From Hericium rajendrae (lineage: Eukaryota; Basidiomycota; Agaricomycetes; Russulales; Hericiaceae): a DNA stretch of 64,000 nucleotides. Location: contig CM065880.1 in NCBI GenBank assembly GCA_033439255.1, positions 1,488,001 through 1,552,000 of the forward strand, written 5' to 3'. Under the pieces are notes generated by a model. That model made no database searches. It saw nothing but the letters and a program-made list of their open reading frames with translations, and had not been told where the DNA came from. The translations under genes and the position numbers were made by a program. Numbering within the stretch: the stretch's first letter is position 1; each line of letters starts with the position of its first letter. This document shows positions 18,868 to 46,197 of the stretch, one piece after another.

Positions 18868-19430
18868 GCAGTCATTTCTGATCAGTCTGATGAGTCAACT
18901 TTTCTGATCATTCTGATCTGACCTAGCTTTTCTGATAGATCTGACTCAACTTTTCTGATGATTCTGATCTGACTCAACTTTTCTGATGATTCTGATCTGA
19001 CTTAACTTTTCTGATGATTCTGATCTGACTTAACTTTTCTGATGATTCTGATCTGAATTAGCTTTTCTGATCATTCTGATCTGACTCAACTTTTCTGATC
19101 ATTCTGATCTGACTCAACTTTTCTGATCATTCTGATCTGACTCAACTTTTCTGGTTATTCTGATCTGACTCAACTTTTCTGGTTATTCTGATCTGACTTA
19201 ACTTTTCTGATATTGAGTCAGTTTTTTATTCATATCTGATATAATTCTGATTTTTTTATACAAATCTGATAGAAGTCTGAGAAAATGAAGGAACTCTGAT
19301 CAACATCTGAGATGATTCTTATTTTTATGGACAAATCTGACAGATTCTTTAAAACCAATGAAACTCTGACATGTCTGATCAAAATAAAATTTCTGAGACA
19401 TCTGAAAAAAGATAATAAATCTGTAGTCAG
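18868..19430. repeat. 28-bp tandem repeats, right subterminal block of the Plavaka-type element
   Basis: About eleven copies of a unit like CTGACTCAACTTTTCTGATG plus ATTCTGAT, drifting into looser TCTGAT words after 19210. Composition matches the left subterminal block and the CATCAGG MITEs. Confidence 0.7.
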
Positions 19431-19436
19431 AAAGCA

Positions 19437-19640
19437 TTTACGATTCCTTAGAATCGTTTACTCTATACCGGCTTTTCCTATTGAAAACGACACCAAAACG
19501 ATGACCATCCCCATTTGGCAGTTGGCTTATGTAATTGCAAGATCATCAATCTGACGAGTTTGCAGGTTCAATTCCAGCTCTGGCCTGACTTTTTCTTTTA
19601 CGCTTTGTTTTATTTACTATAACTCGGTGAGTTCTTGACC
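19437..19640 (+). mobile_element. 5' end of a Helitron-like element (copy d) with tRNA-like segment
   Basis: Begins TTTACGATTCCTTAGAATCG, a hairpin of six pairs, followed by TTTACTCTATACC and a tRNA-like segment (A-box-like TGGCAGTTGGCTTATG, B box GGTTCAATTCC) at about 19515-19590. No matching 3' hairpin is found to the right, so it is probably truncated. It replaces the right terminus of the Plavaka-type element. Confidence 0.55.
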
Positions 19641-24929: not shown

Positions 24930-25084
24930 GATTAGATGAAGATTGGAGAGTCTACAGAAGGTCAGATGCACCATCAACATAGAGCAAAAGAGAGTGAGAG
25001 CCTACCTTGTCTGTAGCAAAGATGACAGCAAAGAGCAAGAGAGATGTGGCAGCAATGAGGCCGGGTGGCTGAAAGTGAACATGA

Positions 25085-25165
25085 TCACATGACATCTTTG
25101 ATCATGTGCGACAGCGAGCCCGACCGTCCTCGCTGTCGCACGTGATCCCTCACCGTCCTCGCTGT
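25085..25165. repeat. Duplicated half of the CGACAGCGAGC palindrome
   Basis: GTGCGACAGCGAGCCCGACC is followed by CCTCGCTGTCGCACGTGATC, and the second half is then repeated in tandem. It is a GC-richer relative of the palindromes in the Helitron-like elements. Confidence 0.65.
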
Positions 25166-25269
25166 CGCACGTGATCCCTCAGGATTGCGAGACAAAAAAA
25201 AAAAGAAACAAATTTTATTTGAAGTCCCTAATATACAATACAGTGGTATGCTACCTAGCGTGATAAGAC

Positions 25270-26075
25270 GGAAACGTGCAGAGTCAAAATCGAGACCAAA
25301 CTGTCATGATTTCGAGCTGCAGGACATGTGGGGCATACCCACACCATGCAGCAGAAGTCTGACCCAAAATCACGACCAAACGGTCGCGATTTTGGGCCAG
25401 CACGACGTGTGGGTGTACCCACATGTCCCGGATGCGAACCCTCTCGTACAGGGCTAGAAACGTCACCGAACGGTGACGTTTCCAGTCCTGCACCATGCAG
25501 AACAGGTCCGGGTCGTATAGACCCAAAATTGCGACCAAACGGCCGCAATTTTGGGTCCGTACGACGTGTGGGTGCTACCCACACGTCCCGGACACGAAGA
25601 GTCTCGTACAGGGCTAGAAACATCACCGAACGGTGACGTTTCGAGCCCTGCACCATGGAGGACAAGTCCGGGTCGTATAGACCCAAAATTGCGACCAAAT
25701 GGTCGCAATTTTGAGTCCATACGACGTGTGGGTGCTACCCACACGTCCCGGACACGAAGCGTCTCGTACAGGGCTAGAAATGTCACCGAACGGTGACGTT
25801 TCGAGCCCTGCACATGGAGGACAAGTCCGGGTCGTATAGACCCAAAATTGCAACCAAACGGCCGCAATTTTGGGTCCGTACGACGTGTGGGTGCTACTCA
25901 CACGTCCCGGACACGAAACGCATCGTGTAGAGCCAGAAACGTCACCGAACGGTGACAATTCTGGCCCTGCACGGCATGCGGGAGTTACCCGCACGCTGCA
26001 CAAGAAGAACGGGTCGTACAGACCCAAAATCGCGACCAAACGGTCGTGATTCCGGGCCTGTACAATGCAGAAAGA
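25270..26075. repeat. Tandem array of hairpin units, period about 160 bp
   Basis: About five units, with starts such as 25558, 25718 and 25877 spaced 160 and 159 bp. Each unit holds three palindromes: GACGTGTGGGTG/CACCCACACGTC, ACGTCACCGAACGGTGACGT, and one built on CAAAATTGCGACCAAACGGC. The array is GC-rich and CpG-rich compared with its AT-rich surroundings. No gene; all reading frames over it are by-products of the repeat. Confidence 0.85.
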
Positions 26076-26310
26076 TTACATACCTTATTCAGCTAGCGAA
26101 ACGCTGGCTGCAACTGCCCGGGGCAGTGCTGGAAGCCCTGGCGCCGGAAGTAAGGCCGTTGGGCCGGAAGTGAGCGCGGTTGTGCCATTCCGAGGTCGTT
26201 GGACCTGAATGAGGCCATTGGGCCCTGCGCGCGAGCCTCGGGGGGCAATGGAGGAGGTCGGAGGAGTGGGGAGAGGGATGTGGTAATGTTGCAGGGGATG
26301 GGCTTCAAAC

Positions 26311-26347
26311 GAGCACCAACTCGCTCGAAACGAGCGAGTTAGTGCTC
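26311..26347. repeat. Hairpin, 17-bp arms
   Basis: GAGCACCAACTCGCTCG, loop AAA, CGAGCGAGTTAGTGCTC: one mismatch in 17 pairs. It is isolated between two other repeat blocks. Confidence 0.7.
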
Positions 26348-26525
26348 ATCATTAGTTAAAAGATTGAGATAAGAAAGTTTATTACTCACCTGCGTGGTCT
26401 GCAAAGCCTCCCAACATTCCACCCTGCCCCAACTACGCGAGAAGAATGCGAGAAGAACGAGTACTTACCAGAGAAAGAGCAAGAGAGAGGACTTGCGCTG
26501 GAAATCATGATCGGGCCTTACGTAA

Positions 26526-26609
26526 TCCGCAGCACGGGCGAAATGACGTACTGCCGTCCCCCTGGTGATGTCATGGGACGGGAGTACGTCATTTCGCCCG
26601 TGCTGCGGA
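26526..26609. repeat. 84-bp palindrome related to 6490-6573
   Basis: The arms TCCGCAGCACGGGCGAAATG and complement enclose CCTGGTGATGTCAT. It differs from the 6490 copy mainly by G/C at sites that are A/T there. It is followed by an apparent unrelated upstream region of the next gene; 26610-27252 holds no gene that I can support. Confidence 0.75.
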
Positions 26610-27252
26610 CGCTGCGGGCGCTTAGTGGGCGCTTGCTGCCAGGCTCCTTACTTCTTCCTGTCATCTCGACAACAGTGCTCAAATCTCGTCTTCTTCGTGG
26701 TTTTCTTTAGCGGTGAGTCTAATTATTCTTATAATCTTTGTATAGATGTATAAAATGGCTAAAATAAATCATAACACCTACTATCTTTAGCAATCCGAGT
26801 GTGGATTGTCAATTCACCGGCATTTTGAGTACTTTTGGTATACTGTCGGAGCTGAGTGCTTCCTTTTAGCCGTTTATCTTGATAGTAAGCTATATTTTCC
26901 TTATATCATATGTATATGTATATGCTAATGTTATTATAGACAGAGGTCTCAATAGCAAAGAGTCGACCCCTAACATTGGTGGCATCTTTGGAGCTTTTTG
27001 TGGGGTTTGAGCAGTTCGGTCAGTTCGGTACGAGGTAGGTACTTCTTTTTAAGTGATTCTTTTTGGAGTGAATCTAATTGGTCTATCCATATGGGCCTAA
27101 AGCTAAAGATAGAGCAATAAATAGCTACTTTTCAACAACAACAATAAAAATATTTCAATTTGACATTTTTAGTGCTTTTTTCTATAGTAAGTCAACTTCT
27201 CTCATATTGTTTGCAAGTACTAAGACTGATATAAATTATAATAAATATAGTT

Positions 27253-30200
27253 ATGGCTTCTCAAACTCTACCAAATGATCTAAAATCATTACAATTACAT
27301 GGTCGGGATTCTGAACTTCCTCCTATTGGCATACGGCCAGATCATCCTCTGCATGCAAAGAACTTTTTGAATAGCAATGATTCTTTGTACAATACATTCA
27401 AGGATGGTACAACATATGTGTGCATAGTGGATACAAGTTCAGCAGGCAAGCAGAAAAATGCAGAGTATGCAGCTCGAGTTGGAGTACCTCGGGGTACCTT
27501 GAGAGAGATGAAAGACAAATTTGGTGAGTGTTTTGCTAACATTTTTGGACAGCTACTAATAAAAATAATATTTGTCAGGCTTGATTCAGTTGAATTCTGG
27601 TGATATGGTGTTTGTACGATCACAACAAGATGGAGATGTGACAAGCAAGAAGGATCTTTTTCAGGGAACCATGATAGCAGGGTATGTTGTTTAAACTTTT
27701 TAGCTTGGTATCACTATACTAATTCAAGAACTTTATGTGATAGAAAATTTTTCTCTTCAGAAAAAATGGAGCATTTGCAACAGGCATTGGAAAATGCTCT
27801 TGGAGAAGAGGAGGAGAGTACAGCATCAATGCCTGTTTGGGATTTGGATTCTAAAACATTATTGGGTGGTACTGCTTTTGAGCGTACTGGTATTCTGCCA
27901 GATAAATCAGGTAGAACATATCAGATTGGACCAACACATCAAAAGCCACCACATCTTTTTGCGCCTTCAAAAAATGGCAAGTTAGAGAAAGGTGGAGAGT
28001 TGACAGATGCACAGAAGATGTCTAAAGAACTATTGGATGTAGGTTTATAAGATCTTTCCAATATCAATTTGGCTAAAGCTGTATAGGCAACTACTGGCTT
28101 GTTTTCAGAGGGCTATAAATGCTTGCCAGGCATACAAAATTATGTTCAGTCTTTTGCAGACTTGCATCCTTTTCCCAAAATTGGATCGTCAGACAATTTT
28201 ATGACCCAGGCCATGCAAGTAAATATCTCAAATGCCACTACTTCTGAAGCAGGTTAGTAAAATTGAAATGAATATAACAAAGATTCAAAATTAATATTTA
28301 CATAGATGTGGATCTTGCATCTATCCTTGGTCATTATGGTGGCAAACATAAAGATGGATATGATGCCCTTGGAGCTTTTACTGCTATGGTTTCTCATTCT
28401 AAGCATCCTAAAAATGGATACGATCCTGGTCGCTTTCACTTGCTAGAGCTTGGTGTTTTCATCGTGCTAGAGGATACTTTGGCTTGTTATTTTTCAGGCT
28501 TGCTTATGCATGGTGGTACTTCTCCAAAGGCTCCTTTAGGAACATCACCATCGGCCTTGAAGACTACAGTTCGCCTCAATGCTATTGGTTATCCAAATGA
28601 TATCTTGTATGATATGAAAGGCATCTTACCTTTGTGCGCTTGGTCCTCAAAATCATCAAAGGAAGGCTTTTTACCTTTAGGTCCTGAAGTTAGATATTAG
28701 TGAGTTCTACTTGTAATATTAAAGCTATATATATTGATTTATCTTTGTAAATTTAGTCCAGAGGATAGAAGTGACACTACAGATAATCCCATCAATGCTG
28801 GCAAGGGTAGCTGGGCTAGAGATGGACACATCATCATGCAGCCTGACTCCTTACTTGATTTTATTGTACGACATCTTCTGTTGTTGTGTATTTTCATATG
28901 TGCACAGATCTGGCCCAAGCTTCAAGTTTGTTGTTCTTACTTGATTATTTTGTTGATTATTGATATTTCACTCTATAGGTTCAAATTGATGTTGACAAGT
29001 TTGTCTCTGCTTTTAGCATCAAATCAACAGATTCAAATTCATCTCATCGATATGTTGCAAAAACTTGGGCTCTAGCACCTGGTCAAGTTGCAGTGCATAT
29101 CGATAACATTGATACTATTCCTATCACTGTGGTTCCATCCGCTACAAATGGCCAAGAAGTGGTAGAAGATCCAAGACATCCTGTCCTGAAAAGATGGAAA
29201 GAATGGTTAATTCAAAACTACAATCTTATGCCCAGCAATCACAAGTCTTTCCCAAAGCTATTCATTGATCCAGATAATCCATTAGAGTCTCAAGTGTTAG
29301 GTGGTAGTTATTTGGGAGGTGTGTTTACATTTTTTTGATATAAAAGAGATTCAACTAAATTATCTTTTATATAGGAAAGACAAAGGCCTATACAAGATCC
29401 AAGCCAGGTAGTAATTAACTTATGGTGCATTAGCTAAGACTAATTGCTCAACATTTTTTTCTTTGTAATAGCAAAACTACGCAAACCTAAGCACTTTTCT
29501 GTTGGCAGTTTGAAAACACGTTCCAACATAAACAAGAAAATACGATCTGTAGCAGATGCACTTATTTCTCCATACAAGGAAAAAAATCAGACAAAGGAAA
29601 GAAAAGGACCAGAGAAGATGACAATGAAGAAGGAATACGAAGAAGCAAGAGGTTGTGCCACAGGGTGAATTATGCATGTTAGTTTTCAACAATTACATAT
29701 AACATATTTATTATATACTGAGCATAGTATGAGATCAGATGAAGACCAAGATGAAGATGAAGAAATGAGAGATGCTTCAGATGAAGATCAGTGGCAAGAT
29801 GAAGATGAACAACATGATGATGAAGAACAGGAAAATGAAGATGAACAGGAAGAGGAGAACAGTGCTGATCAAGTACAAAAAAGCCTTGCAAATGTGGAGA
29901 AGACTCTATCTTGGAGCCAAGAGTGCTTTAAAGATATGCTTTCCTCAAAAGAATCTGATGATAGAGATGGTATTCTGCTTTCTTCTATTTTACGATGGAA
30001 AGGTATGGAGATTTTTTTTTAGTTAACAATATGAGTCTAACATCAAGAGCAGAATACTTTTCAGTAGAATCACTCAAAAATGACTTGGAAGCACTCTCTA
30101 CTCATAGAAACTCCATTTCTGCATCCTCCTCTAGTTATGTTGTGGGGCCGTCTACACATATCAGCCTCAGCAACATGGCAACAGCTATTAAAAAATGCAC

Positions 30201-32051
30201 TCCTGGATGTCTGGACCCTTTGCCTTCAGTTCAGAAAGGCCTACAAAACATTTCTGATCTTCTTCATAACATTGCACTTCAATCTCTAGACACTCGTTGC
30301 AATCAATTTATAGTTATGATGTCTCATATGACAGCATGGCTATGGATTGATCATATTGCAAGCTACTATGCAGATCAAGTCTTGAATGTCCATGCTGAGG
30401 ATGAAGAAAACTGGATTGTGAAGCTTGGGCAAATATTGTTGGCTGCTGCTAATGCAACTAATTCATGCAATATCACTCTGACACCATCCCATTTTACTTC
30501 AAATCTTTCTACTGTGCCCAGTGTTATCTGTCTCCCACCTTGTCGCAATGATCTCAGCTCTGTTGACTTTAGCCCTCGAAAACACTTTCTTCAGCAATCT
30601 TTACGAATGACTTTAGGACAATGGTTAAATCCTGATCAAACTGTCTCTCCTCATGCTGTTGCTCAAGCAGTATTTGTACAGAATCTAGTCTCTATTGCAG
30701 GTATGTTTATATATCAATAGTAATATTTTATAATATCTCATCATGATAAACAGGGATAGAGATTCTTTACTTGGAAAAGACTTTTGTTCTCTTCTGTGGA
30801 TTTAGTCCAATGGTGGCAAAGAAAAAGCTATGGCGCTCCGTATCTCAAGATGATTTACAACATTTTTCAACTTGGCTATCTCATCATGCTATTGTCATAC
30901 CAGACACGGAGGAGCATAAACTCATGATGTCCATCAATGATGTTTGTGATCAATATTCTGGTTTCAACAAAGATGCTCGTAAACATATTGAGACCTTGCC
31001 AATTCCCTCTACTGCTAGTCAGTCTGAAGAGAGACATTCCCCTTCACCACATCCTCCTCTATTTTCTCATCCTCCACTTGGCCACATAAAATGTCTAAAG
31101 TTTCTGCATGCAGCTATATTCTTCCTGGATAGATCTTCTTTGAAGAATGAGCTGTCATTTACAGGTGATCTAGAATCTGCACCTCCAGAACATCAGGCCC
31201 TCCTTACAAAAATGGCTACACGACTTGACCATTATCTTCCCTTTCGTCAGCGTGCACCAAGTCTTGTGAGGATGAGAGAAGATGATACTCCTTTTTCGCC
31301 AACAAATGTTCACTCTCAAGCTGGATTTTTCAGTGCTCTGATCTTCCGTGGCATCACTTATGGTTGCCAGTTTGTCTTGGATCAGAAGGCCATGTTTTCA
31401 GACCTAAAAGACTGGTCAGCCTGTTATGACAGCCTTAAATCCAATAAATCCTCAAATTATTTCTGTAACACCACAGCTTATGGTTGTCCAACCGCGTAGT
31501 GTTGAACATGCAGACAAATATTGGAGGGCAGCAAACATAGAATGGAAGAATTTGGTGGAAAGAACAGCACATTGCTCCTTTACAGCATTCTACAAGTGCA
31601 TCAAAAACAAAAAGTCAAAAACAAATGAAGTCATGTTCTATGGCTTTGGACCGCTTGTGGCTTATCTTCTCACTGCAGACTATGCTTATACAGATGTCAT
31701 TGATATGCCATCAGAGTATGATATGGGTGAACTTATATCAGAGATCCAAGCAGGAGCACTGAAAGGCCTAGCAAAATTACAATTGATCCATCCTAAGGAG
31801 AAAAACAAGATGGTCATCAAAGATGCATTTGTTTTGCTATTTCATTTTCTAGATGCACAGCTGACTATAGAAGAGAAAGAGAAGATGGTGTTTGATCCTA
31901 TTATGCTGGAACATACTTTATGTAAAGTATCTCGACTGTGGAACTTTGGGTTAGAGCAGTTGGTAAGATGTCTTATATATTTATAAGTGATCAACTCTGA
32001 TTTAATCTGTCTTATAGTAACTTGTAACAGATGGACGGAATGAAATATTGA
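27253..32051 (+). CDS. TET/JBP-like 2-oxoglutarate dioxygenase with long C-terminal extension
   Basis: Start ATG 27253 (MASQTLPNDLKSLQ). The first exons join in frame by short GT-AG introns. The catalytic core reads GHYGGKHKDGYDALGAFTAM (HxD at 28347-28355), then GRFHLLELGVFIVLED, FSGLLMHGGTSPKAP (distal His 28509-28511) and an Arg (28572-28574) suited to bind 2-oxoglutarate. HxD...H with HGG fits the TET/JBP branch, known to be expanded beside fungal transposons, where it oxidises 5-methylcytosine or thymine. After it come a Lys-rich tail, an acidic run and about 600 residues that I do not recognise (MTAWLWIDHIASYYADQVL, FGPLVAYLLTADYAYTDV). The frame shifts somewhere in 31430-31500 unless an intron there is missed; the last exon ends at 32051. 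It converges on the next gene, 64 bp away. TET assignment is by motif only. Confidence 0.5.
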
Positions 32052-32115
32052 ATAGGTATCACGCGTACAGACAATCCAAAAAAAATACTTCGCAACAAAC
32101 AATATTAATATTGAT

Positions 32116-33366
32116 CTACGCAGAACTAGAATCTTGCATAAAGGTGTCCTCTAAGCCTTCTACGACCGTGCTCTTTGTCTTCTTCACCTCTCTTGACATA
32201 GCGTCAACTGAGACCACATATCCAATGCGCCTTTTCAATACCTTTGGAGGAGATGCCTTCTTCTGAAACTCAATAGAGTATGCTTGCATATCATAGGCCT
32301 AGTAACAATCTATCCGTAAGTCTCATCTATACAAAGATACAAACAAATTTACCTCTTGCAATTGACGATCAAGAATAGCTACAGATCGCAACTTGCATGC
32401 CATCTGATACAACCCTTTTTTTCCAGACAGAGGTACCGTAACAAAAGACACTTGCACCTGAACAATCTGACCAGGTCGAATGATGGCTGGATCAATAGTG
32501 ATATAGTGATAATCAGAAGATCTAGAGGTTTTAACATTAGTAAAATACAACACAAGAGTCGGCATAGAGTTGACGTACGTGCTGTTCCACTTTCTTTCAT
32601 AGTACTCAACCTTATTATCATCAAGATGAGCACCTGCAGTGGATGTGGCCAGTAGCAAGACGCCTTGTGGATCCACGACATCCCCAAAGGGTACAGGACT
32701 TGAGCCGTTGACAAGTGAGAGAGGAGTGACGTAATGGTTGGCAAAGCTAAGGCTTGCATGACTCTCAACTTGATCAGGAACCCATGGTCTGAGACCTTTC
32801 ACCGAATAGATGCTATCTATGAGACGATGGATAGCTGCAACACCGGCAACTGATTGATCAAAGAGAGGAGATCCTATTCCTAGTAGGCGAACGCTCTGTT
32901 TCGCCCAAATGATCTTTGTAGGTAGACTGTCATATGTTTTTAAGCAAAGAGAAAGACGACAAAAGCAGATAATAACACACCTGTTGCGATCCAAAATTGG
33001 TGGCAAGTCATAGTCTAACAAGACACCTTGTCCTTCCCAGACGGCTTCCTCCATCTCTGCATCAGGATCCGAGTTTCGCAACACAACCTTTGCAGATCCA
33101 TCTACGGCTTTATGTGCGACATAGTTCTCTCTCAAGAACTTCATCTAACAAAGCTAGTTAGCTGAATTCTAACAATAGTAAGGTATGAATACGCACATCA
33201 GACATATTGCTGAGTTGAAGATGACGTGGTAACTGCTTTACAGCATCATCACTGATCTTTATAAGATGTGCTCCTACATATTCATGAGACAAACTATACA
33301 GAGACAAAACACCAATCACTTACGGCAATCTGGCTTGTCTAAAAACTCAATCAAAGGTATAGACAT
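32116..33366 (-). CDS. Conserved-looking unknown protein, 5 exons, intact
   Basis: Start ATG 33366 (MSIPLIEFLDKPDC). Four short introns (for example a donor GTAAGTGATT after GATTGCC, and GTGTGTTATT after CGCAACAG) splice in frame to about 370 residues ending MQDSSSA (stop 32116-32118). Readable segments: VWEGQGVLLDYDLPPILDRN, GSPLFDQSVAGVAAIHRLID, FANHYVTPLSLVNGSSPVPF, DPAIIRPGQIVQVQVSFVTV and a basic C-terminus. No signal peptide, membrane segment or known catalytic motif. The PGQIVQVQVSFVTVP strand pattern suggests a beta-rich domain. It faces the next gene head to head across tandem repeats and may share its regulation. Confidence 0.6.
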
Positions 33367-34725
33367 CTTAAATGATGCGTAGAATGTATGGATAATGAAA
33401 ACAATCCTAAGAGGGGGGAAAAGAAGAAAGATAGGACAGGATGGCAGAACTGCAAAGAATGGACGGAGCATTCAAAATTACGATGTGGTCTGATTCTGAC
33501 TCTGTTTTTTCTATTGGTCCGCATTAACAACAAGATCATCTAGATTCATAGCAGCACAATCCGGTCTATGTTCTTTGTGAACGTAGTAAGGTGCGGGCTT
33601 ATTTTCAAATGTATCAAGATTACAATTCAACAATTTCAATTTCAATAATCCTTTGTGATCGAGATTTCTTGGTGTCATCTCCGCTTAAGTCCGGTCAAGG
33701 CTTGGCTACTCGAAAGATCTTGCTTAGAACATATTGCTTCCGAATCAACGGTCAATGGCTTCATGTTATGCCTAGCGCTTTGCTCACTGCTTCTTTCAAT
33801 TGCTCTCTTGAAATTTCATTGCTGGTTGTCCCTCTTCCGGTCCAATGGGCATCCTGTGTTTTATGTTTGTTCCGAAGCTTCAGGTCCAATGGTACGTGTC
33901 ATCTTGTCTTAAGCTCGCTTAATGTTCAGCTACTTTGCAGATCTCGCTTAGAACATATTGCTTCCGAATCAACGGTCAATGGCTTCATGTTATGCCTAGC
34001 GCTTTGCTCACTGCTTCTTTCAATTGCTCTCTTGAAATTTCATTGCTGGTTGTCCCTCTTCCGGTCCAATGGGCATCCTGTGTTTTATGTTTGTTCCGAA
34101 GCTTTAGGTCCAATGGTACGTGTCATCTTGTCTTAAGCTCGCTTAATGTTCAGCTACTTTGCAGATCTTGCCTAGAACATATTGCTTCCGAATCAACCAT
34201 CAAGGGTTTCATGTTATGCCTAACACTTTGTTGTCCGGTTGAAATTCTATATTTTACATTTCCAATGTTGGCTACAAACATCCTAAGAACATACGTATTT
34301 TTACCGTACTTCGGGCCAACGCTGAAGCATTTTGTAGATCTCAGGTTCCGATTCTCTTGTTCATCTTGCTCTGCATCTTGCTAATTCTTATTTGTTTTGG
34401 ATATTCAGTTACTACTTGACACGTCACCATACCCCAAAGATCTGTCAGACCGATTTGATAGGTGACTACACAAATTCAGATGTAAGCACGATCTCTATCA
34501 TAATATTTCCAATTGCATCGTTTATCCGTGCATTCACAAAGTATGACTTGAGGTCTAAGTCAGATTTACACCTGTCCTAAACTCCTATCCTCATTTTATA
34601 TAAGAAGAGAGCAGTTCAATCGCTTTGCCTCAGCATTTGCTGCCCCACTGTTCTTCTGCATCTTTGCTGGCACTTCATTTGTCTTATTGCACATCTATTA
34701 TCCTCTTTTTATACCTTTTTTCATC
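33367..34725. promoter_or_regulatory. Divergent intergenic region with 224-bp tandem repeat
   Basis: This 1.36-kb region separates two head-to-head genes. A 224-bp unit starting GAACATATTGCTTCCG at 33727 repeats at 33951 with very few changes and begins a third time at 34175 before breaking off near 34240. No gene is supported here; the open frames follow the repeat. The position suggests a bidirectional promoter, but no specific control element can be named. Confidence 0.6.
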
Positions 34726-36906
34726 ATGAATACTCGGTCTCGCAGCAACAAGGACAAGGTCCTTGCTCTTCCTTCCACCCCTGTTCATAAGCCCAAGATG
34801 ACCGTTCAACCTTCGGCTCCCAAGGGACTCAGCCGAACATCATCTCTGGCTAGCTCACTAGGTTCTATGAACTCGTATGTCTTTATTTTGTGCAATTATA
34901 TGATTGGGCTAATGCTGTTGACAGTAGGAAGAGAGCTTTGGAAGAGCCAGCGTTCGAGTCCGATGAAGAGTACACTTATCTTTTTGGGATTTTGTTTCAT
35001 ACTTTTCTGACCATTTTGTGCGTAGGCCAGAGTTGCAGACTCCATTGACTACACGTTTTAAACGGATGGCTAAAGCAGATCGGTGAGTTTTTTTATCTTT
35101 TACTGTTCAGATATGCATTAACATAAGAATAAGAGAGCCTCTCAGCTTACGCAAAACATCAGAAACGACTAACAATAATGGAACTGCTTCTGCCCCAAAG
35201 AAACAGAAGATGAACGAGAAGTACGTATATGTTTTTTTTCATACATTTGCTTTCTTGATATTGTTGTCTTTGCAGAAAAGAGCGTACTTTGGTATCAGAT
35301 GATGAGTACGTGATTTTATTGCATTCTTCACATGCATAGTCCAAGCTTGCTTAGCTTTATAATTGTACTTGGCAGTCCATTTTCGATTAAGGAGGTTAAT
35401 CCTCAGAAGACGTATGTCGTACAGTTTTATCTGTAGAATGATTGCTGATTTGCCTACACATTATAGATCAAAGGATGTCTTTTTAGATGACGAAGCTGCT
35501 GACACTACAGATGCAATGGTTTCTGATGACGTGCAGAAGAGCACGGATGAAAACAAAGAGAATCAAGACAACATTGACTTGGACGTGATGGACAACAATC
35601 TGTATGTTATTGTCACATCTATTGGAATACTAAATCATTCTTCTTTCAGAATTCCAGAGGGCTGCAATGTCACCATTGCTACGTTGATTGATCCCCTTAT
35701 GACAATGTTTTACAAACAACTTCCCCCTCTAAAGTATGCTTGATTTTTGTTGTAAGCTTTTCCAAATGACTTACGACTCTTTTTTCTTATAGCACGTCTA
35801 CTAGTCTGATTGGTGGCAGTGTAGATGTCATGACCTATGCAGTTAGTCGTCTGACAGATGATGCCTACGGTAACATTACACTCGAGTAAGTTTATTGTTC
35901 AACTCATTTCATCATACAATATATTAATAGGGTATGTGCACAGCTATCTCCTTCAGATTATCACATTTCAGGAGAACCGATCTTTGAATTTGATGAATCC
36001 CTCTCGTGCAGATCCAAGTGACTTTGTTGCTATGCCTTTAGGCACCGGCCATGCTATTGCATTCAAGGACGGAAATAAAAGCACAGCCTTGTGTCTCACC
36101 GTTGGATTTGTTGTAGATTCTCATCTAGCCAATGCACGGGTGCTGGAAAGCAGTATGTTCTTTATTGTTATCATCTCTTGTATGCAATTTGACTATCTTA
36201 TTTTAGATGGACGTCAGATCAAAGAGCTCTATGTCTCTCCCTTGAGCATGGAATGGGAAAGGGCTTTGGCATTCTACGGCCTGGTCTTTCAGAAGTCCAA
36301 GCTAAGCATATACTGCATGAACAATGCACTTCCTTTTTCAACTGCGATGAGTCCGGTTGCACCTTCTTCCTCCAAAAAGAAATCTCAGTCATCCGGCAAG
36401 TTTTGCCCATTATCTTTATCAACCTGAGATACTAAGTGGAACTATACATTAGGCTCCAAGGAGTTGGCCACTCCGTCTTCCAAGTCACGAGACAAGTGGT
36501 CCAATGTTAGCCCAGCTTCTCAGGCTACAGGGACCGATGCCACATTCAAGATGGGGATCAAAGGAATGAGTAAGAGAGCCATTCCGGTGTCCTATGATGG
36601 TAAGTGCGTCTATCTTGTTGTTTTCATCAACTAACTCCGTCTTTTTGTTATACAGTTCCAGTGTGGGACTGCACCGCACTTTACAAGCGTATTGGTGATG
36701 GAGGATCTGTTGACCGAGGAGATCCATCTCTTTTGTTCGGTAGAGCTCATACGCATTCTGAGGTCAAGGTGATTCAGGATGATTTGCATGCTGGAGATGT
36801 AGTTGCGATTATTCATACCACATCCCATTGGATGAAAGGCGATTTCTCCAACCTTAGTCTTAACATCCAGGGTGTCTACTTGCTTGCTCGCGAAAAGGAG
36901 GATTAA
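34726..36906 (+). CDS. Unknown spliced protein, about 13 exons
   Basis: Start ATG 34726 (MNTRSRSNKDKVLALP). A Ser/Lys-rich N-terminus is built from several very short exons, most ending in Asp/Glu codons just before GTACG or GTATG donors. Later exons read IPEGCNVTIATLIDPLMTMF, GSVDVMTYAVSRLTDDAYGN, DFVAMPLGTGHAIAFKDGNK, ALCLTVGFVVDSHLANARVL, ELYVSPLSMEWERALAFYGL and VWDCTALYKRIGDGGSVDRG, ending LLAREKED. All joins can be made in frame; one (SSG to SKELATP near 36393) seems to use a GC-AG intron. No known domain is recognised. Intact reading through so many introns argues that the gene is, or was recently, under selection. Confidence 0.6.
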
Positions 36907-37018: not shown

Positions 37019-37024
37019 TCAATT

Positions 37025-37054
37025 GGATTCTATCGCTATTGAGCGATAGAATCC
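37025..37054. other. Perfect 13-bp hairpin at Helitron 5' end
   Basis: GGATTCTATCGCT, loop ATTG, AGCGATAGAATCC. Smaller relatives have CGATTC-CTTA-GAATCG at the equivalent place. It may be a recognition structure for the Rep nuclease. Confidence 0.6.
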
Positions 37055-38822
37055 CATAAACGAGGTAGAGATCCTTGCTTAGACCATCGCCTTAGTGCTA
37101 TTATTTGCTATATTTGTGGTGAGTTCTTTGATGATATATTTAGATAAGGACCACTCCAATTGCTACGTGCAGCTAACATTGGCCAAAGTGCCTGTATCAA
37201 AGTGTACAAATAATTGGGCCAAGGTGCTCGCACTACAAAAATTACATGTTATGACGTGCTTAATTTTAATATTGCTATTATGCATAACCGAAGCCAAATT
37301 GAGCAGACAAAAGTCCTTCTTTATTGAATGGATATCATCTTATAAAGATAGTATATCATACAACACACAAGATAGTATGAAAAGTAATATCTTGTTGTCA
37401 ATAAATATCAAAAAGCCACAAATGTTAGGTGGTTCTACTACAAAGGCAACTTGGTCATATGATGAAATCTCAGACTTTATACAAGGAGATGCTATATTTC
37501 ATAATAACACATCTTGGAACTTCGTTTCTCATAGTGAAGATTTAATACCAGCAGCTAATGATATGATTATAACTTCTATTCCAATTTCCAAGCTGACTAG
37601 GCTCACAAAAAGTGCTATTATTAATATATGCTGTCAACATAAGATACAAGCAAACAATCAAAATATGTTGCAAGACTTGCAAAATAAATTGAACAATCAT
37701 AGCTGTAAGACAGAAAATTGTCAACAATATTTCACATTGTTTAAACTTGCTAAAAATAAAAATAGCATAAAATGTAAAAAATATAGAAAAAATACAAAGA
37801 AGGTCCAGCAAGATGAATCATGTTTTCCTCCAAGTCCTCCTTCAAAAACACTTATTGAAGATATTGTTTCTGAATACTGTAATGATATACAATCAAATAT
37901 GATATTGGAGAGCTTATGTAGTGTCTGTGGTCTTTTGACTTCACTTCAACATCTGACAGATCTGTCTGAACATGATTTAGACTTGTCTATCCTTGAAACT
38001 GACAATATTTTCATTGCAAGGCAGGAAAGACACATGTCATCAGATATAATACAATCTTATAAAGGACCCTTACTTGATAAACACTCACAAAGCATCTGTA
38101 ATATTTGTCTTCAAGAGTAAAAAAGAGAAAGATACCAAAACATGCTCTAATCAATGGCAATTGGATAGGTGAGATTCCAGAGCAGCTACAGAATCTCAGC
38201 TGGACAGAAAAGATGCTTATCTCAAGGGTGTGTCACAACCGATGCATTGTATGCGTGCACAAGTCTGGCTTACACAAAATGTCAGCAAATGCAGTTTTTT
38301 TCTCTACTCCTATGCCTAAGATATATGCAAAGCTTCCACCTAGCCTTGATGAATTAGATGAAGTTATGGCATTTGTTTATATAGGTCAAACTCAGCCTAC
38401 AGAAAAAGAATTTAAGCAAACGCCTCTTTTGGTTCGAAGAAACAAAGTTGCTCATGCTTTAGAATGGCTTAAGCTTAATCATATTGATTATGCTGACTTG
38501 GATATATCTTATGAGAATCTGAACACATATCCAGAAGACATTCCTCCTGTAGTTGTAGAGTGCAAAATTTCAGATGATGCTATTGAGTCTGGAATGATGT
38601 CGGTGTCTGATGAACCTCTTCAAGGTGTAGAGTCTGGAAAATGTCCCTTTATTGTACATGGTTTGATAGGTGGAGATTTGGAGAAAAAGACTACTCAACA
38701 GCTTAGAGCAATTGCTTTACAGCATATGAGAGGCAAGAACAACAGAGCTTTAGGAGTTGGACAAGCTGCAAATCCAGAGTCAATATATAACAATCCTCAG
38801 CTTCATCAGCAATTCGGTTGAA

Positions 38823-39114
38823 CCCTGACGCCCTGACGGCCCTGACAGCTTTAGCAGCTATAATACTTAAGCTCAATATATTGTTAAAACACTCGTACAG
38901 CCGGTAGCATCAAATATAGTTGATGTCTATGATTATGGCTAAACTTACGCACTCAGAGTTGCCAGCCTGACAGCCCTGGAGATGAGAATTTGGGCATGAA
39001 ATTCTCACCCTGACCATGCTTTGGGCATAGATGAAGCCTGGAGACTGAATCGCACTGACACGTCCTGACTGCACTGAAAGTTACCATATATGGTAACCGT
39101 CAGTGCGCTCAGGG
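38823..39114. mobile_element. 292-bp insertion with CCCTGA inverted ends
   Basis: It interrupts RepHel between NNPQLHQQF and ITDVYPQIFPW. The left end CCCTGACGCCCTGACGG and the complement of the right end CCCTGAGCGCACTGACGG are similar inverted repeats. Inside lies a perfect 18-bp palindrome (GTTACCATATATGGTAAC). No clear target duplication is seen. It is unrelated to the CATCAGG families. Confidence 0.55.
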
Positions 39115-39835
39115 CATCTGCCTAATTACTGATGTTTATCCTCAAATATTTCCATGGCTATTTCCATATGGCCTAGGGGGTGTTGGCAATAGCAATGGCA
39201 GTGTAAAAATCTCTGATCATGCAAGAAAAAATGATCTATTGATGTACCATGACAAAAGATTTCAATATGAGGCTATGTTTCCCTTGGTCTGTATCAATCA
39301 CGATCAAATCAAAGAGAGTACAACAGGTGGTTACCTTTTGGCCAAAAAAGCCAATTTTTCCAATATAGCAGATAGACTCATGTCAGTGAATCCAGAAGTT
39401 CTGAGTCAACTTATAGATAGATTGGCTGAGGGAGAAAGAGTACAACCAGAGACAGATGAGGAAAAACTCTGTTATCAAATTATCAATGATTTGGACCATG
39501 TTGCTCATCATGTACAAGGTTCAAAGACAGGTCGCAAATATATGAGAAATGAGATCTGGTCTCTTATATCATATTTGGGTGCTCCGTCTTGGTTTATTAC
39601 ATTTGCACCAGCAGATCTTAAACATCCTATCTGTTTGTATTTTGCTGACAAAGACATAAGATTCTATCCAAAGCTTTATGGAAAGGATGAGCAGTTTCGT
39701 CTTATTGCTAGCAATCCTGTAGCAGGTGCCAGGTTTTTCAAACTCATGGTGGACTTGTTTATCAAACATGTATTGAGATTCAATGACAAAAGAAGAGGAT
39801 TGTATGGTAAGACTGCTGGATACTACATCAGGAAG

Positions 39836-40406
39836 GTTGACAACTTTCTGATTGACCTGACAATTTCTAACCCTACTGACAGCTCCTGATTGACCTGATC
39901 CACCTGAAAGCAATCTTGAGAAGCAAATATCTGATCAGACTTTTACATTCAAGAAAAGACATTTATTGTCAGATATATAAGTTTGTAATCTCTAACTAAT
40001 AGATATAACAAAATCTCTGATATCTGAAATTTTCTAAATCTGAGAGTGTCTGATCTGAGATTTTTTTCAAATCTGGAGGTCAAATATCTGAAAATTATCT
40101 GCAACTGTCTGAGAGCATCTGATGGTGTCTGACACTGTCTGATCCATCTGACTGATATTTGACCTCCAGATTTAAAATCAGTCACTCTCAGATTTTCAAA
40201 AATTTTAGATATCAAAGATTTTGATATATCTATTAGTTAGAGATTAAAAACTTATATATCTGACAATAAATGTCTTTTCTTGAATGTAAAAGTCTGATCA
40301 GATATTTGCTTCTCAAGATTGCTTTCAGGTGGATCAGGTCAATCAGAAGCTGTCAGTAGGGTTAGAAATTGTCAGGTCAATCAGAAAGTTGTCAACCTTC
40401 CTGATG
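39836..40406. mobile_element. 571-bp CATCAGG MITE (family B), TSD TA
   Basis: It is flanked by TA on both sides (39834-39835 and 40407-40408). Its middle is in the opposite orientation to the 581-bp copies. It splits the Rep domain just before the HUH motif. The TIRs fuse open frames on both sides by chance. Confidence 0.9.
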
Positions 40407-42782
40407 TATGGAACTGTGGAACAACAAGGTCGTTTAAGCCTTCATTTGCATACTATGATCTGGATTCAAGATTGTTTGTCACCTCAGGAAATTAGAGATA
40501 GAATTTTAGACCCTACTTCAGAGTTTCAAAAGGAGATGATTAGATACTTAGAAAGTTGTCATCAAGGAGAATTTATAGATAGCACTATGGCAAAAGTAGA
40601 AAATGACATGATACAACAAGTAGAAAAGGATGTACACTATGTTGAACCAACTCAAGTTTTACCAGAAGCTCCACCCAAACCATGCAAAATACATGTAAAA
40701 AAAGATGATGTACCTTTAGTATCAAGCTTTGAAGTGGAGCATAATACAAATGAATATGTAATGGATTGCAGCAATTGTCAAGAAACATGTTCATGGTGGA
40801 CACATTTTAAAAAGAGAGTCAATGAACTTTTATATTTGTCTAATGTTCACAGTTGCGATAAAGGAGGTTGCAAGAATAAAAAATATGACAGTTGCAAAGC
40901 TCGTTTTCCAAGAGACACATATCTAGCTTCTTTAATAGACAAGGACAGTGGTAGCATTATCATGAAAAAAGGAGAGGCCATGCTCAATACATTTTCCACA
41001 CCTTTAACATATCTTTTGGGATGTAATACAGATGTAACTAGTATGCTTTCAGGAACTGCCATTAAGTCTATTGTTGCATATATTACTGACTACATTATCA
41101 AGTCACCTTTAAATACTCATGTCATGTTTCAAGCTATTCGCAGTGTATTTGATAAAAATACTACTTATATTGGTGGTGACAGCTCTAGACAAGAAAAAGC
41201 AAGAAAGTTAATAGTTCAGATAGTAAATTCTTTGACTGTAAAATTAGAAATGGGATCTCCCATGGCATGTATGTATCTTTTGTCTCATCCAGATCACTAC
41301 ACAAGTCACTTGTTCAAGGTTTTCTTTTGGAGTACATATGTAAAACAAGTGAGCCAAGATTGGAATCAAATTGATGATTTTCATGAAAATGTTCCTGATA
41401 AAGTGATACTAAATCAAATTCGAGGAAAGTTAGTAGGCTTGTCTCCAATTCTTGATTATATGTATAGACCAAAAGAACTAAGTGATGTGACTTTATATGA
41501 TTGGATACGTCTATATGAAAAAAGGCCATTGAGTGGACTAAAAAAATCAAAATCATATTCCTCAAGTAAAAAATCACAGTCTAAGGATGAATACATCTTA
41601 GATATGAATGTGGATGATACTGAAAAAATGGACATTGATGTGAAAGAAGAAGAGAAAAAGAGAAAAGAGATAGAATATGAAGAGGAGGAGAACAATGACT
41701 ATGTATATACTGATGAAGAAGAAGAGGATGAAGAAGAGTATGATCCAAATGATAAGGATTATGATCCAAAAAATCATAATCAAGATACAAAGAAAAAAAT
41801 AGTACCAAAAATGTTATTTATTGAGCCTCATCCTCAATTAAAAAGTCATTATATTCATAAATTTGATGAGAGCAAAAGTAAAGTGCCAAACTTCACTGGA
41901 GGTCCTTTGCCCAGAAGGGATAAAGGAAATAGAGAGGAGTATTGTCAGACTATGCTTATATTATTCAAGCCTTGGAGATCTGGTCTGGATCTCAAAAAAG
42001 AACAGTCATGGGATGATGCATTTGAGAATTACAAGTTTACTTCTCGACAAAAGCAGGTGATGGATTTTTTTCAAATCAAATATGAATGCAATGATGCTAG
42101 AGATGATTTTTCTGCACAACGAAAACAACAAGCACTGAATGATAGCTTTGGTGATAAAATCTTTGCCACATTTCAGCATGAGCTTGATGGTCAACATGAT
42201 GAAGATGAAGCAACTGCCAACTGGGGTGTTGATAGTCTTACAGAAAAGCTTCAAGAAGAATGGGATGATATAGGCAAAAAACAACAAAAAAGACTGACAG
42301 ATATGTATGAGATGCATAAAGTTATTCAAGGTACTGGATGGTTAAATCCAAGTAAAGTAGAGCAGACAGAAAATGCTGTTGATGAGAATGTCATGTTATC
42401 CAAGTCTCAAAAGGAATGGAAAGCAACTCTAGCACGAGAAAAAGATATTATTTTGGCCAAAAGAGATCTTGAAGCTAGCAATGCAGAAAAGAATAATGAT
42501 ACTTCCTATGGAGATCCTTATAATGTAAATGAAGTCAAGTTGGTGAGTAAAGCATATTTAGATTACAATTATCATCCAAAAAATCCAGAGGATAGATTAA
42601 ACATTGATGAAATAGCTAAGACATTCACACTAAATGTTGAGCAATCAAGAGCATTCAAAATTATTGCAAATCATGCTGTGACTCCACAGTCTGAGCAGCT
42701 CAAGATGTATTTAGGGGGTATGGCTGGCACAGGCAAGTCACAAGTCATCAAAGCTATGATCAAGTTTTTTGAGCAGAGACAA

Positions 42783-43363
42783 CATCAGGAAGGTTGACAA
42801 CTTTCTGATTGACCTGACAATTTCTAACCCTACTGACAGCTTCTGATTGACCTGATCCACCTGAAAGCAATCTTGGGAAGCAAATATCTGATCAGACTTT
42901 TACATTCAAGAAAAGACATTTATTGTCAGATATATAAGTTTTTAATCTCTAACTAATAGATATATCAAAATCTTTGATATCTGAAATTTTTGAAAATCTG
43001 AGAGTGTCTGATTTCAAATCTGGAGGTCAAATATCAGTCAGATGGATCAGACAGTGTCAGACACCATCAGATGCTCTCAGACAGTTGCAGATAATTTTCA
43101 GATATTTGACCTCCAGATTTGAAAAAAATCTCAGATCAGACACTCTCAGATTTAGAAAATTTCAGATATCAGAGATTTTGTTATATCTATTAGTTAGAGA
43201 TTACAAACTTATATATCTGGCAATAAATGTCTTTACTTAAATGTAAAAGTTTGATCAGATATTTGCCTATTAAGATTGCTTTCAGGTGGATCAGGTCAAT
43301 CAGGAGCTGTCAGTAGGGTTAGAAATTGTCAGGTCAATCAGAAAGTTGTCAACCTTCCTGATG
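42783..43363. mobile_element. 581-bp CATCAGG MITE (family B), TSD AA
   Basis: The uninterrupted site is present in H1 near 4375 (GAGACAAGAGTC on minus), proving a 2-bp AA duplication. It lies just after Walker A. Same length as 15537-16117. Confidence 0.92.
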
Positions 43364-46019
43364 AAGAGTCTTACAAATTTTTAATCATGGCACCTACGGG
43401 AGCTGCAGCAGCTTTGATAGGAGGATCGACATACCATTCTATGTTAGCTATCAATAAATTTCAACCAGAAGGAGGCAAAGGTGTATCTACTCTGGCTGAT
43501 ATTCGTACTAGGCTTCAACATGTTCAGTACATCTTTTTAGATGAGGTGTCTATGGTAGATTGCAATAGTTTATACAATATCAGTGCCCAAATGAGCAGTG
43601 CACTTAAAGTAGAAGATCAGCCTTTTGGAGGTGTAAACATCATTCTTGCTGGTGACTTTGCTCAACTGCCTCCTCCTGCTAATAGTGCCTTGTACAGCCA
43701 AGATGTAGATACTGTAATTCACACTACTCATTCTCATCTAAAACAAAAGGCTTGTTTAGGAAAAGCATTATGGCATCAGTTTGTGACTGTGGTAATTTTA
43801 AGACAGAATATGCGCCAAAAAACACAGACACCTGATGATGCTAGATTCAGAAGAGCTTTAGAAAATATGAGATACAAATATTGTACAGAAGATGATATCA
43901 ACCTTCTTAGATCTAGAATTACAGGACCTGGGGCCAATAGACCCAACATTGCAGATCCTCAATTTCGAAATGTATCTATCATTACATCATTCAATATTCA
44001 GAGAGATGAAATTAATGAAGCAGGAACAATTCGATGTGGAATAGAGTCCAGCCAAAAGCTTGTACACTTTTATTCTATAGATAGATGGCATAAGGCTGAT
44101 GAATCTTTGTCAAGTAAAAAGAAAAAAAAATATGTATAGTGATCCTATAAGAGCAAACAATCAAATTCACGTTACCTTGCAAAGAAAACTATGGGAGTTA
44201 ATTCCATCTATGACCAAACACTATGCAGGAAAATTATCTTTGTGTATAGGAATGCCTGTCATGCTCAAACACAATGAAGCAACTGAGATGTGTGTTACCA
44301 ATGGAGCTGAAGGTGTGGTCGTAGGATGGAAGTGTCATACTGGTATTGATGATAAGCTTGTGTTAGATGTAGTCTTTGTGAGATTGACTTGTGCACCTAA
44401 GCCAGTGCAACTCACAGGGCTGCCTCTTAATGTTGTTCCTATCTCCAGAGTTGAAGAGAAAATCAAATGCTTTATGCCCAATGATAAAGAAATATGGATT
44501 AGTAGATCTCAGATTCCTATCCTACCTAACTTTTCAATGACAGACTATGCTTCTCAAGGAAGAACACGACCATTCAATGTTGTTGATATTCAAAATTGTA
44601 AGGACCAAAGAGGAGTTTATACTGCTCTCTCACGAAGCTCAAGTATTGCTGGAACAGCCATTCTTCAGCAGTTTAATACTGACAAAATTAAAGGAAGACT
44701 CCCTGGATATCTAAGATCAGAATTTAGAGAGCTTGAGCTATTAGATGAAATAACTTGTCTTCAATATTACAAAAAACTTCCTGCAATCATTGATGCTCCT
44801 ACTAGAGCAGCTCGCATCCAGCAGTATCAAATGTGGAAAGGAGTTGACTATGTCCCACCAAATGTGCCTGCTCCACTCAAATGGACAAAATCAGATCCTT
44901 TTGAACTTCTTCATAACACAAAGAATGCAGAATGGACAATTTTAGTCAAACAAAAGACTAATACAATTAATAAAAATAGTATAGAGGAGCCTGATAATCT
45001 TAAGAAAAGAAAGCTTGTAACATTTGAAGAGAAGCCAGATAGCTTTGATACGGCAAATGGAACAAAAGCATTAGATCAGGTTAGTAAAGAAGCTGCTGAT
45101 AAAAGAAAGATAAAAAAACAAAAAACAAGTGGTACTTCAAAGGTAAAAGTTTCTTCTCCTATTGGATTGAAATGGTGTGGTCAAACTTGGAGCTGTGCAT
45201 ATGATACATTGTTTACCATCCTTTATCATATTTTTAGGACAAAAAGAGATCTTTGGGAAGATCACTTAGCAAATTTGAACAATTACTGTAGTACATTGAA
45301 TAATGAATGGACTCACTTGGAACATTCTGACTTTGAGTTAGTAAGAAAAAATGTTAGAGCTTTGCTCACACAATTTGACCCTATCAAATTTCCTAATACA
45401 CAAGGAGTGGGAACTGATATCAGAGAGTTAACCTCTGTTATACTTGCATGTCAAACAGATGTAGGATATGTAGAAGACAATTGTACATCTTGTGAGTATT
45501 CTGTGACTGAAAATGTTCATAATCTTGTATGGCATATTTCTAGCTTGTCTGCAAACTCAAATACTGCTAGTGAATTAGGAAAAATTATGAATGGAATTAG
45601 TATGAAAAAATGCCCTCAGTGCAATAGTGCACTTCATACTACTACTGTTTTTACCAACAACAGTCCACCATTGATAGCAGTAGAACTTGACTATCACAAC
45701 ATTAAAATAAATCACTCATTTACCATGAAGCATCATACAAATAATGAAAAGACATCATTCAAACTAGTGGCTATAGTGTATTTTGGAGATGTTCATTTTA
45801 CTGCAAGAATTATTGACAAAGGAAAAAGAATCTGGTACTATGATGGAGTAACTACTGGTAGGCAATGTGAGTTTGAAGGTATGCTGTCAGGTTTTGATAA
45901 TTTGCATTATGCAAAAGAGCGAGAAGCAAGTTTACTTATTTATGCACCTTAATGACTAAATAAATAAATAAAAAAGGAATCGTCTTGCCGTGCGAAGCAT
46001 CGGCCCTCTCCCCCCAAGT

Positions 46020-46197
46020 TCTGATTGCAGATAGGCAAATCTGAGACAATCTGATGGTCAAATATTCTGAGATTATGTGCAGCTATCTGAAAGCATCTGA
46101 TGCTCTCTGATTCTATCTGATTCTACCTGATTCATCTGATTCATCTGAGATCAGATAAATCAGATACCCTCAGACACTCTCAGATTGCTCTCAGACT
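46020..46197. repeat. TCTGAT-rich segment, left part of a CATCAGG-type element
   Basis: Dense TCTGAT/ATCAGA words lie between the Helitron 3' end and the gypsy 5' LTR. Its continuation is probably 56809-56852, because the gypsy target duplication AGACT joins the two. Confidence 0.55.

Follow-up and report, generated by a model that had tools for sequence, protein, structure and literature searches.

We examined a 64-kb stretch of a Hericium rajendrae contig (CM065880.1), referred to as the window and numbered from its first letter, in which an initial annotation had described three spliced genes as a module that may travel or act together. These genes, here named g1, g2 and g3, and an additional upstream gene, g0, lie between what appear to be the two ends of a single Helitron2 transposon that also carries a Rep-helicase. 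The explanation that we favor, with a probability of roughly 0.6, is that the block is the cargo of one giant Helitron2 (19440-46018), which may be armed against silencing by the host. We propose that the unit comprises five genes, which in order from its 5' end would be g0 (minus strand), the TET-like g1 (plus), g2 (minus), g3 (plus) and the Rep-helicase (plus).

Genes at the locus

g0: 24929-20241, minus strand, 17 exons, 1271 amino acids; JmjC-like 2-oxoglutarate/Fe(II) oxygenase by residue pattern
g0/g1 divergent intergenic region: 24930-27252, 2.3 kb, palindrome-rich, CpG observed/expected ratio 1.02
g1: 27253-32020, plus strand, 15 exons, 1336 amino acids; hand-refined spliced model, TET/JBP-like dioxygenase
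g2: 33366-32116, minus strand, 5 exons, 346 amino acids; hand-refined spliced model
224-bp tandem repeat: 33672-34230, strand not applicable, about 2.3-2.5 copies, in the g2/g3 divergent region
g3: 34726-36906, plus strand, 13 exons, 505 amino acids; hand-refined spliced model
Rep-helicase region: 37083-45952, plus strand; open frames from stop to stop, the first beginning 177 bp after g3

The gene models, which we read directly from the data, contain no internal stops in g1, g2 and g3 once spliced, and all introns of these genes are of the GT-AG type with the exception of a single GC-AG intron in g3. As a control, the best automatic model for each stretch was compared with the models obtained from 100 dinucleotide shuffles of that stretch; the automatic models of g1, g2 and g3 have 13, 3 and 10 introns, respectively, and differ from the hand-refined versions. 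The automatic model of g1 scored 263.6 (shuffles: mean 105.9, standard deviation 13.7, maximum 133.3, with 61 of 100 shuffles yielding a model), that of g2 scored 70.9 (mean 33.7, standard deviation 7.1, maximum 46.1, 95 of 100), and that of g3 scored 110.7 (mean 59.1, standard deviation 8.9, maximum 78.9, 64 of 100). The three genes thus outscore every shuffle that yielded a model and are, by gene-model statistics, genuine genes in the plus/minus/plus order given by the initial annotation. The g0 model scored 255.5 (mean 109.3, maximum 130.8, 43 of 100 dinucleotide shuffles yielding a model); the middle part of its protein is rich in lysine and glutamate.

The coordinates of the initial annotation stand with the exception of the end of g1, which a more natural last intron places at 32020. 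With this stop the gap between g1 and g2 is 95 bp, and the 64 bp reported earlier requires an alternative last exon ending at 32051. The g1 intron at 31465-31513 is weak, and a frame shift is an alternative reading there. The 224-bp tandem repeat was found where it had been described, between the divergent genes g2 and g3. The full extent of the block had been underestimated: g0 was overlooked, as was the Rep-helicase region, which probably belongs with it. g0 and g1 diverge across their 2.3-kb region just as g2 and g3 diverge across the 224-bp repeats. Within the g0/g1 region, 160-bp tandem repeats of GC-rich palindromes (25361-26063) are rich in CpG and are flanked by the CpG-depleted g0 and g1.

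The ends of a candidate Helitron2

Proposed complete Helitron2: 19440-46018, plus strand, 26,579 bp, between T and T; identified by its ends, its asymmetric terminal inverted repeats (ATIRs) and the change in flanking sequence
5' terminal hairpin: 19440-19457, plus strand, ACGATTC-CTTA-GAATCGT, with the 5' ATIR ACGATTCCTT; matches the copy A 5' end exactly
3' end: 45974-46018, plus strand; ATIR AAGGAATCGT at 45974-45983, hairpin GCCGTGCGAAGCATCGGC at 45987-46004, terminus CCCAAG followed by T

The window contains several members of the same family. Copy A (5902-7559, minus strand) is nested in copy C (4979-5901 and 7560-7737, without a 5' end of its own) with no target duplication, and because copy A sits inside copy C, both of its termini are delimited. 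The 5' terminus of the large element reads T|ACGATTCCTTAGAATCGT (19440), as in copy A, which closes at its 3' terminus with AAGGAATCGT, a hairpin and CCCAAG|T. Family 5' ends are present at 19440 (plus), 7559 (minus), 17259 (minus) and 8002 (minus), with 0, 0, 1 and 3 mismatches, respectively, and 3' ends at 46018 (plus), 1505 (minus), 5902 (minus), 7736 (plus) and 15192 (minus). T, counted as lying outside the element, precedes all four of the 5' ends and follows all five of the 3' ends. At up to three mismatches, the window has a single plus-strand 5' end, at 19440, and downstream of it a single plus-strand 3' end, at 46018; between these two, the same threshold yielded no unpaired plus-strand 3' end of the family.

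The 5' and 3' ATIRs pair at 10 of 10 positions in the large element, in copy A and in copy B, and in copy B the two ends share one variant base. In the presumed pair 8002/1505, within which the second Rep-helicase fragment would lie, the ATIRs match at 9 of 10 positions and a common change is found at both ends. Similarity extends inward from the terminus: starting at 19440, the identity with copy A is 94% over approximately 145 bp, and that with the end at 8002 is 82% over approximately 150 bp. A long hairpin upstream of g1 (26526-26609) has a counterpart of 91% identity in copy A. The corresponding position is occupied in copy B by a diverged palindrome, with pairing at 24 of 29 arm positions, and in copy C by a shorter palindrome, with pairing at 16 of 19. 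Long internal hairpins of this family are located at 6481-6581, 16340-16460, 5395-5530 and 26526-26609, and their sequence varies from copy to copy. The sequence outside the proposed ends also differs from the sequence inside, as the words TCTGA/TCAGA occur at 5.7 (19140-19439) and 8.1 (46019-46204) per 100 bp outside and at 0.7 and 0 per 100 bp in the 300 bp inside. Across the window, a density of at least 3 per 100 bp (six or more words) is reached in 7% of 200-bp stretches.

Helitron2 elements are recognized by a 5' ATIR within a hairpin, a 3' ATIR preceding the 3' hairpin, and insertion next to a T (PMC3627910, PMC5148889). At 19440 the 5' ATIR lies within the expected 0-2 bp of the end and inside the hairpin, and insertion is next to T without target duplication. 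The 3' ATIR ends 35 bp before 46018, which is past the 20-30 bp range of one description (PMC3627910) and inside the 20-40 bp range of another (PMC5148889). Helitron1, with its 5'-TC, 3'-CTRR and A/T target, was considered and rejected, the ends here being T|ACG...CAAG|T. Taken together, these features make it quite probable that 19440-46018 is one Helitron2 element. Terminal repeats immediately around the three-gene block do not rise above chance, and a terminal inverted repeat transposon carrying only g1-g3 was rejected for that reason; the sole ends found are those of the Helitron2 at 19440 and 46018. The idea of a travelling module survives in that the genes appear to be carried by a transposon; a free-standing three-gene unit is not what the sequence looks like.

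Several observations count against a single large element. The 10-bp ATIR is modest evidence when taken alone, as 5% of left-end shuffles reach such a match. Direct comparison of the left and right outer flanks gave nothing better than E 0.03; the right flank is approximately 75% similar to miniature inverted-repeat transposable element (MITE)-like elements over 132 bp, and the left flank matches none of them. The flanks are therefore alike only in their TCTGA-rich style, and an empty site is not demonstrated. The whole unit is present in a single copy in the window. A second copy of the Rep-helicase (1504-4977) lacks part of the gene, which leaves its connection with the 5' end at 8002 unproven.

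The Rep-helicase region

DUF6570: 38102-38818, plus strand, Pfam E 2.5e-42
Helitron_like_N (Rep, PF14214): 39059-39886, plus strand, E 2.7e-24
PIF1 helicase (PF05970): end of 40290-42794 and 43255-44136, plus strand, E 1.7e-18
MITE-like insertion 1: 39823-40407, splits the Rep-helicase; inverted, 98% identical to 42783-43363
MITE-like insertion 2: 42783-43363, same family; not in the Rep-helicase fragment at 1504-4977

Both the Rep and the PIF1 helicase domains expected of a Helitron2 are present here, in separate pieces. With its Rep-helicase interrupted by both insertions, this copy has probably lost its autonomy. Self-comparison of the window revealed the second, partial copy, which covers the 3' part of the Rep-helicase, in addition to short non-autonomous relatives. 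The C-terminal part of the Rep-helicase (44081-45949, plus strand) resembles a ubiquitin-specific protease in its motifs, with a Cys box (WCGQTWSCAYDTL), CxxC pairs and a His box. No profile in Pfam or NCBIfam matched this part. Animal Helentrons carry tegument-type deubiquitinases (PMC9741609).

The MITE-like element is approximately 580 bp long and has a third copy at 15537-16117. The copies are 98-99% identical, which suggests recent spread, and the two copies inside the Rep-helicase contain no CpG at all. Between g3 and the Rep-helicase, at 37022-37057, there is a perfect hairpin with a 13-bp stem, GGATTCTATCGCTATTGAGCGATAGAATCC (arm 16 nt), which is present once in the window. The possibility that the 5' end of the element lies at this hairpin (37025) was examined and rejected, given that the hairpin has no 9-mer in common with the 3' end.

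CpG depletion and codon usage

Ratios of observed to expected CpG are low in g0 (0.18), g1 (0.24), the parts of the Rep-helicase (0.13-0.27) and the Plavaka gene that lies elsewhere in the window (0.26). They are higher in g2/g3 (0.59-0.61), in a neighboring Ty3-type element (0.70) and in the two divergent intergenic regions (0.71 between g2 and g3 and 1.02 between g0 and g1). The corresponding excess of TpG/CpA is 1.28-1.40 in g0, g1 and the Rep-helicase parts and smaller, 1.22-1.24, in g2/g3. In g0, g1 and the Rep-helicase the gene bodies thus have the look of formerly methylated sequence, which the presumed control regions lack. This contrast fits a protected control region, and base composition could also produce it. 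Codon usage does not discriminate: g1 correlates at 0.93-0.94 with two Rep-helicase pieces, at 0.82-0.86 with the other two and at 0.91 with the Plavaka transposase, and two of the Rep-helicase pieces compared include short ends of inserted elements.

Two of these results speak against our interpretation. The GC content at third codon positions of g2/g3 is higher than that of the Rep-helicase and their CpG history is different, therefore g2/g3 could be later arrivals. In addition, the loss of CpG from g0, g1 and the Rep-helicase points to past methylation, so that any TET-like protection was incomplete.

The different profiles of g2/g3 bear on an alternative in which two adjacent things have been joined in our reading: a Rep-helicase Helitron that starts near the hairpin at 37022-37057, and an older Helitron at 19440 without a 3' end, with the genes belonging to neighboring DNA. 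Such an arrangement would account for the hairpin with 16-nt arms between g3 and the Rep-helicase, for the CpG and codon profiles of g2/g3 that are unlike those of the Rep-helicase, and for outer flanks that are not demonstrably one interrupted repeat. However, neither the 3' end nor the 5' end at 19440 has a 9-mer in common with the hairpin at 37025, whereas the ends at 19440 and 46018 pair 10/10; in addition, a search at up to three mismatches revealed no unpaired family 3' end in the interval. We regard this alternative as unlikely.

CpG depletion also bears on the view that the genes are a host or foreign cluster that was hit or adjoined by transposons, with the dioxygenases serving the fungus. 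The open multi-exon genes in divergent pairs do look maintained, whereas the Rep-helicase is broken. On the other hand, the depletion in g0 and g1 resembles that of the Rep-helicase and Plavaka genes (the Ty3-type element being less depleted), the genes are enclosed by Helitron ends, and fungal TET genes are repeatedly transposon-borne (PMC12730594). This explanation is less likely still than that of two adjacent elements, and a single Helitron2 carrying the genes as cargo remains the reading that we prefer.

Active sites of the two putative oxygenases

The named active-site residues of g1 are all encoded by exon 5 (28306-28699, residues 279-409). The HxD...H...R core noted by the initial annotation is found at H293, D295, H347 and R368, which corresponds to the iron triad and the 2-oxoglutarate-binding Arg of TET/JBP enzymes. 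The pocket further includes D298 (H+5), T304 (H+11), Y374 (R+6) and N376 (R+8), and g1 thus also has the Asn/Asp at H+5 and the aromatic residue at R+6 that are characteristic of these enzymes. The offsets were counted from what we take to be the positions of the iron-binding His in NgTet1, CMD1 and hTet2 and of the Arg in hTet2. In this count D298 corresponds to Asp234 of NgTet1, Asp350 of CMD1 and Asn1387 of hTet2, T304 to Thr1393 of hTet2, and Y374 to Phe391 of CcTet and Tyr1902 of hTet2, the iron-binding His326 and Arg385 of CcTet being used as published (PMC11040006).

Two types of TET from transposons provide a comparison. Proteins of the AG type have Gly/Ser at H+5 and Asp at H+11, and those of the PE type have HxE in place of HxD (PMC12730594). 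g1 belongs to neither, as it has Asp at H+5, Thr at H+11 and an HKD motif. It shares the fungal TET-type HxD...H...R core with CcTet and the AG-type TETs of Kyakuja/Zisupton transposons; CcTet differs from it in having Gly331 at H+5 and Asp337 at H+11, where g1 has Asp and Thr (PMC11040006).

By its active-site layout g1 looks like a TET/JBP-like dioxygenase, and the assignment made by the initial annotation is upheld to that extent. Every profile search for a 2-oxoglutarate oxygenase was without a match: Pfam gave no oxygenase family for g1 at E values up to 1 (whole protein) or up to 10 (core), and for the core there was no oxygenase family in NCBIfam or PHROGs and no related sequence in the Protein Data Bank (PDB). 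These negative searches are evidence against our reading of g1, as are three further results. At R+8, where a His or Arg contacts the base, g1 has N376. The TET residue pattern, which was set after the protein had been seen, also occurs in 26 of 2000 shuffles. A single-sequence AlphaFold model of exon 5, with a predicted local distance difference test score (pLDDT) of 37, is unusable for judging the fold. The mismatch at N376 is not family-defining, because R+8 is a secondary base contact that already varies among known TETs, being Arg in CcTet and His in hTet2 and NgTet1 (PMC11040006). Similarly, the missing profile match, formally one of the outcomes that the initial annotation had named as refuting its proposal, is not decisive, because the PE-type transposon TETs described by Kojima in 2025 were likewise linked only by structure-based comparison, with an HHpred E value of 1.4 to CMD1 (PMC12730594). 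We call g1 TET/JBP-like rather than a proven member because it lacks a profile match, though profiles can miss TETs of this kind.

The same results have to be set against the possibility that g1 is another kind of 2-oxoglutarate oxygenase, one that does not act on DNA bases, or that its HxD...H...R arrangement arose by chance. The lack of an oxygenase profile match and the presence of the pattern in approximately 1% of shuffles favor this possibility. However, the positions H+5, H+11 and R+6 fit known TETs, and TETs are established transposon cargo. We consider it improbable, although it is the strongest of the alternatives discussed here.

The g0 protein carries a different pattern, with S911 (-3), H914-x-D916, K931 (H+17, in a GSKLW motif) and H987. 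It thus has the HxD/E...H triad and the 2-oxoglutarate-binding Lys approximately 17 residues after the first His that are typical of JmjC proteins. A likeness of g0 to mushroom JmjC-like proteins is taken as a lead and not as a test. The model residues of Jmjd6 are His187, Asp189, Lys204, His273 and Thr184 (PMC2453528); g0 resembles Jmjd6-type JmjC oxygenases in its HxD, the Lys at H+17, the distal His and the Ser/Thr at -3, and differs in the spacing of the distal His, which is at +73 in g0 and at +86 in Jmjd6 (PMC2453528). Two points tell against this assignment. The JmjC residue pattern, again set after the protein had been seen, also occurs in 4 of 2000 shuffles. Moreover, with its lysine-rich middle left out, g0 had no JmjC, cupin or other oxygenase match in Pfam, NCBIfam, PHROGs or PDB sequences. 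We therefore refer to g0 as JmjC-like and not as a member of the family.

Genes 2 and 3 and searches for relatives

Pfam was queried with g1, g2 and g3 as whole proteins, with g0 in two pieces without its lysine-rich middle, and with the cores; PHROGs and NCBIfam with the g1 and g0 cores, g2 and part of g3; and PDB sequences with the g1 core, the g0 pieces, g2 and part of g3. No meaningful match was obtained for g2 or g3 in Pfam (whole proteins), PHROGs, NCBIfam or PDB sequences, the last three having been searched with the 323 C-terminal residues of g3. A single-sequence AlphaFold model of g2 exon 4 consists mostly of strands and, with a pLDDT of 38, carries no confidence. Both results count against our interpretation. 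The C-terminal parts of g2 and g3 were compared as possible relatives of each other, with nothing significant. Plant Helitrons carry single-strand-binding proteins; by analogy, our guess is that g2 and g3 might be DNA-binding helpers.

A number of weak matches were regarded as chance: RRN3, BUD22, AAA_8, DUF6978, SNU71_N and Archease in Pfam; families 22304 (E 0.1, g1) and 16841 (E 0.055, g3) in PHROGs; an AbiEi antitoxin (E 0.056, g2) in NCBIfam; and 2qr6 (E 0.73, g0) together with 8jgn and 8jgm (E 0.5, g2) among PDB sequences. Viral contigs held no match for g1 (first 561 residues), g2, g3, a Rep-helicase piece, or the TET-like or JmjC-like motif patterns, and prokaryote genomes held none for the TET-like motif pattern; both searches are uninformative on fungi.

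A possible anti-silencing role

The ends, the gene models and the catalytic residues are seen in the sequence itself; that the unit moved as one, the activities and substrates of its enzymes and their part in countering silencing are inferred. In this model the Rep-helicase would move the element as single-stranded DNA between its hairpin ends. The TET-like g1 protein may act on the DNA of the element itself, oxidizing 5-methylcytosine, and the JmjC-like g0 protein may demethylate or hydroxylate a chromatin protein. The element could thus evade silencing for long enough to allow expression of the Rep-helicase. It is a more tentative suggestion, to which we give somewhat less than even odds, that a two-enzyme eraser cassette (oxygenases for DNA and for a chromatin protein) with a shared divergent promoter region and two helpers constitutes a mobile anti-silencing module of a size unreported for fungal Helitrons in the literature consulted. 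TET genes are known cargo of fungal transposons and are supposed to undo silencing. If our interpretation is true, a JmjC-type enzyme next to a TET suggests that transposons target marks on DNA and on chromatin at once, and the anti-silencing idea becomes testable.

Relation to known elements

A Helitron2 carrying a TET gene has already been published for Agaricus bisporus (Kojima 2025, PMC12730594). That element and the one described here are alike in being Helitron2 elements with a TET/JBP gene in a mushroom-forming fungus, but the lists in that paper place the A. bisporus TET in the PE type, which has HxE (PMC12730594), and g1 has HxD. Members of the Helitron2 group (PMC3627910), including FoHeli (PMC5148889), likewise have a 5' hairpin with an ATIR, a 3' ATIR before the hairpin, and T-adjacent insertion. 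FoHeli1 and FoHeli2 of Fusarium are approximately 5-6 kb in length (PMC5148889), whereas the element here is 26.6 kb and carries four cargo genes. The HELPO1 Helitrons of Pleurotus ostreatus, again from a mushroom, hold between one and four cargo genes; unlike the present element they are 1.5-13.7 kb long, insert at AT and have CTRR-type ends, and no oxygenase cargo is apparent in the available part of that report (PMC4289320). According to a 2019 review, fungal Helitrons reach at most 14 kb (PMC6431247).

The words "JmjC" and "jumonji" are absent from the main text of Kojima 2025 (PMC12730594). Among the matches listed in a literature search, mostly judged without full text, we noticed no report of a Helitron with a JmjC or jumonji gene. 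Iyer et al. reportedly linked TET genes to fungal transposons in 2014, and an earlier mention of a JmjC partner may be found there. What is apparently new in the present element is its size of 26.6 kb, a TET core with the hallmarks of neither the AG type nor the PE type, and the JmjC-like partner.

Neighboring transposons

Two other transposons in the window lie outside the proposed element. A Plavaka transposase is encoded at 9230-12235 on the minus strand (PF18759, E 7e-103, in the frame 10802-12235), and its superfamily has also been reported with TET genes. A Ty3-type long terminal repeat retrotransposon (46205-56808, plus strand), with reverse transcriptase, RNase H, integrase and chromodomain, starts 186 bp past the Helitron 3' end and has 417-bp direct repeats that are 97.6% identical.

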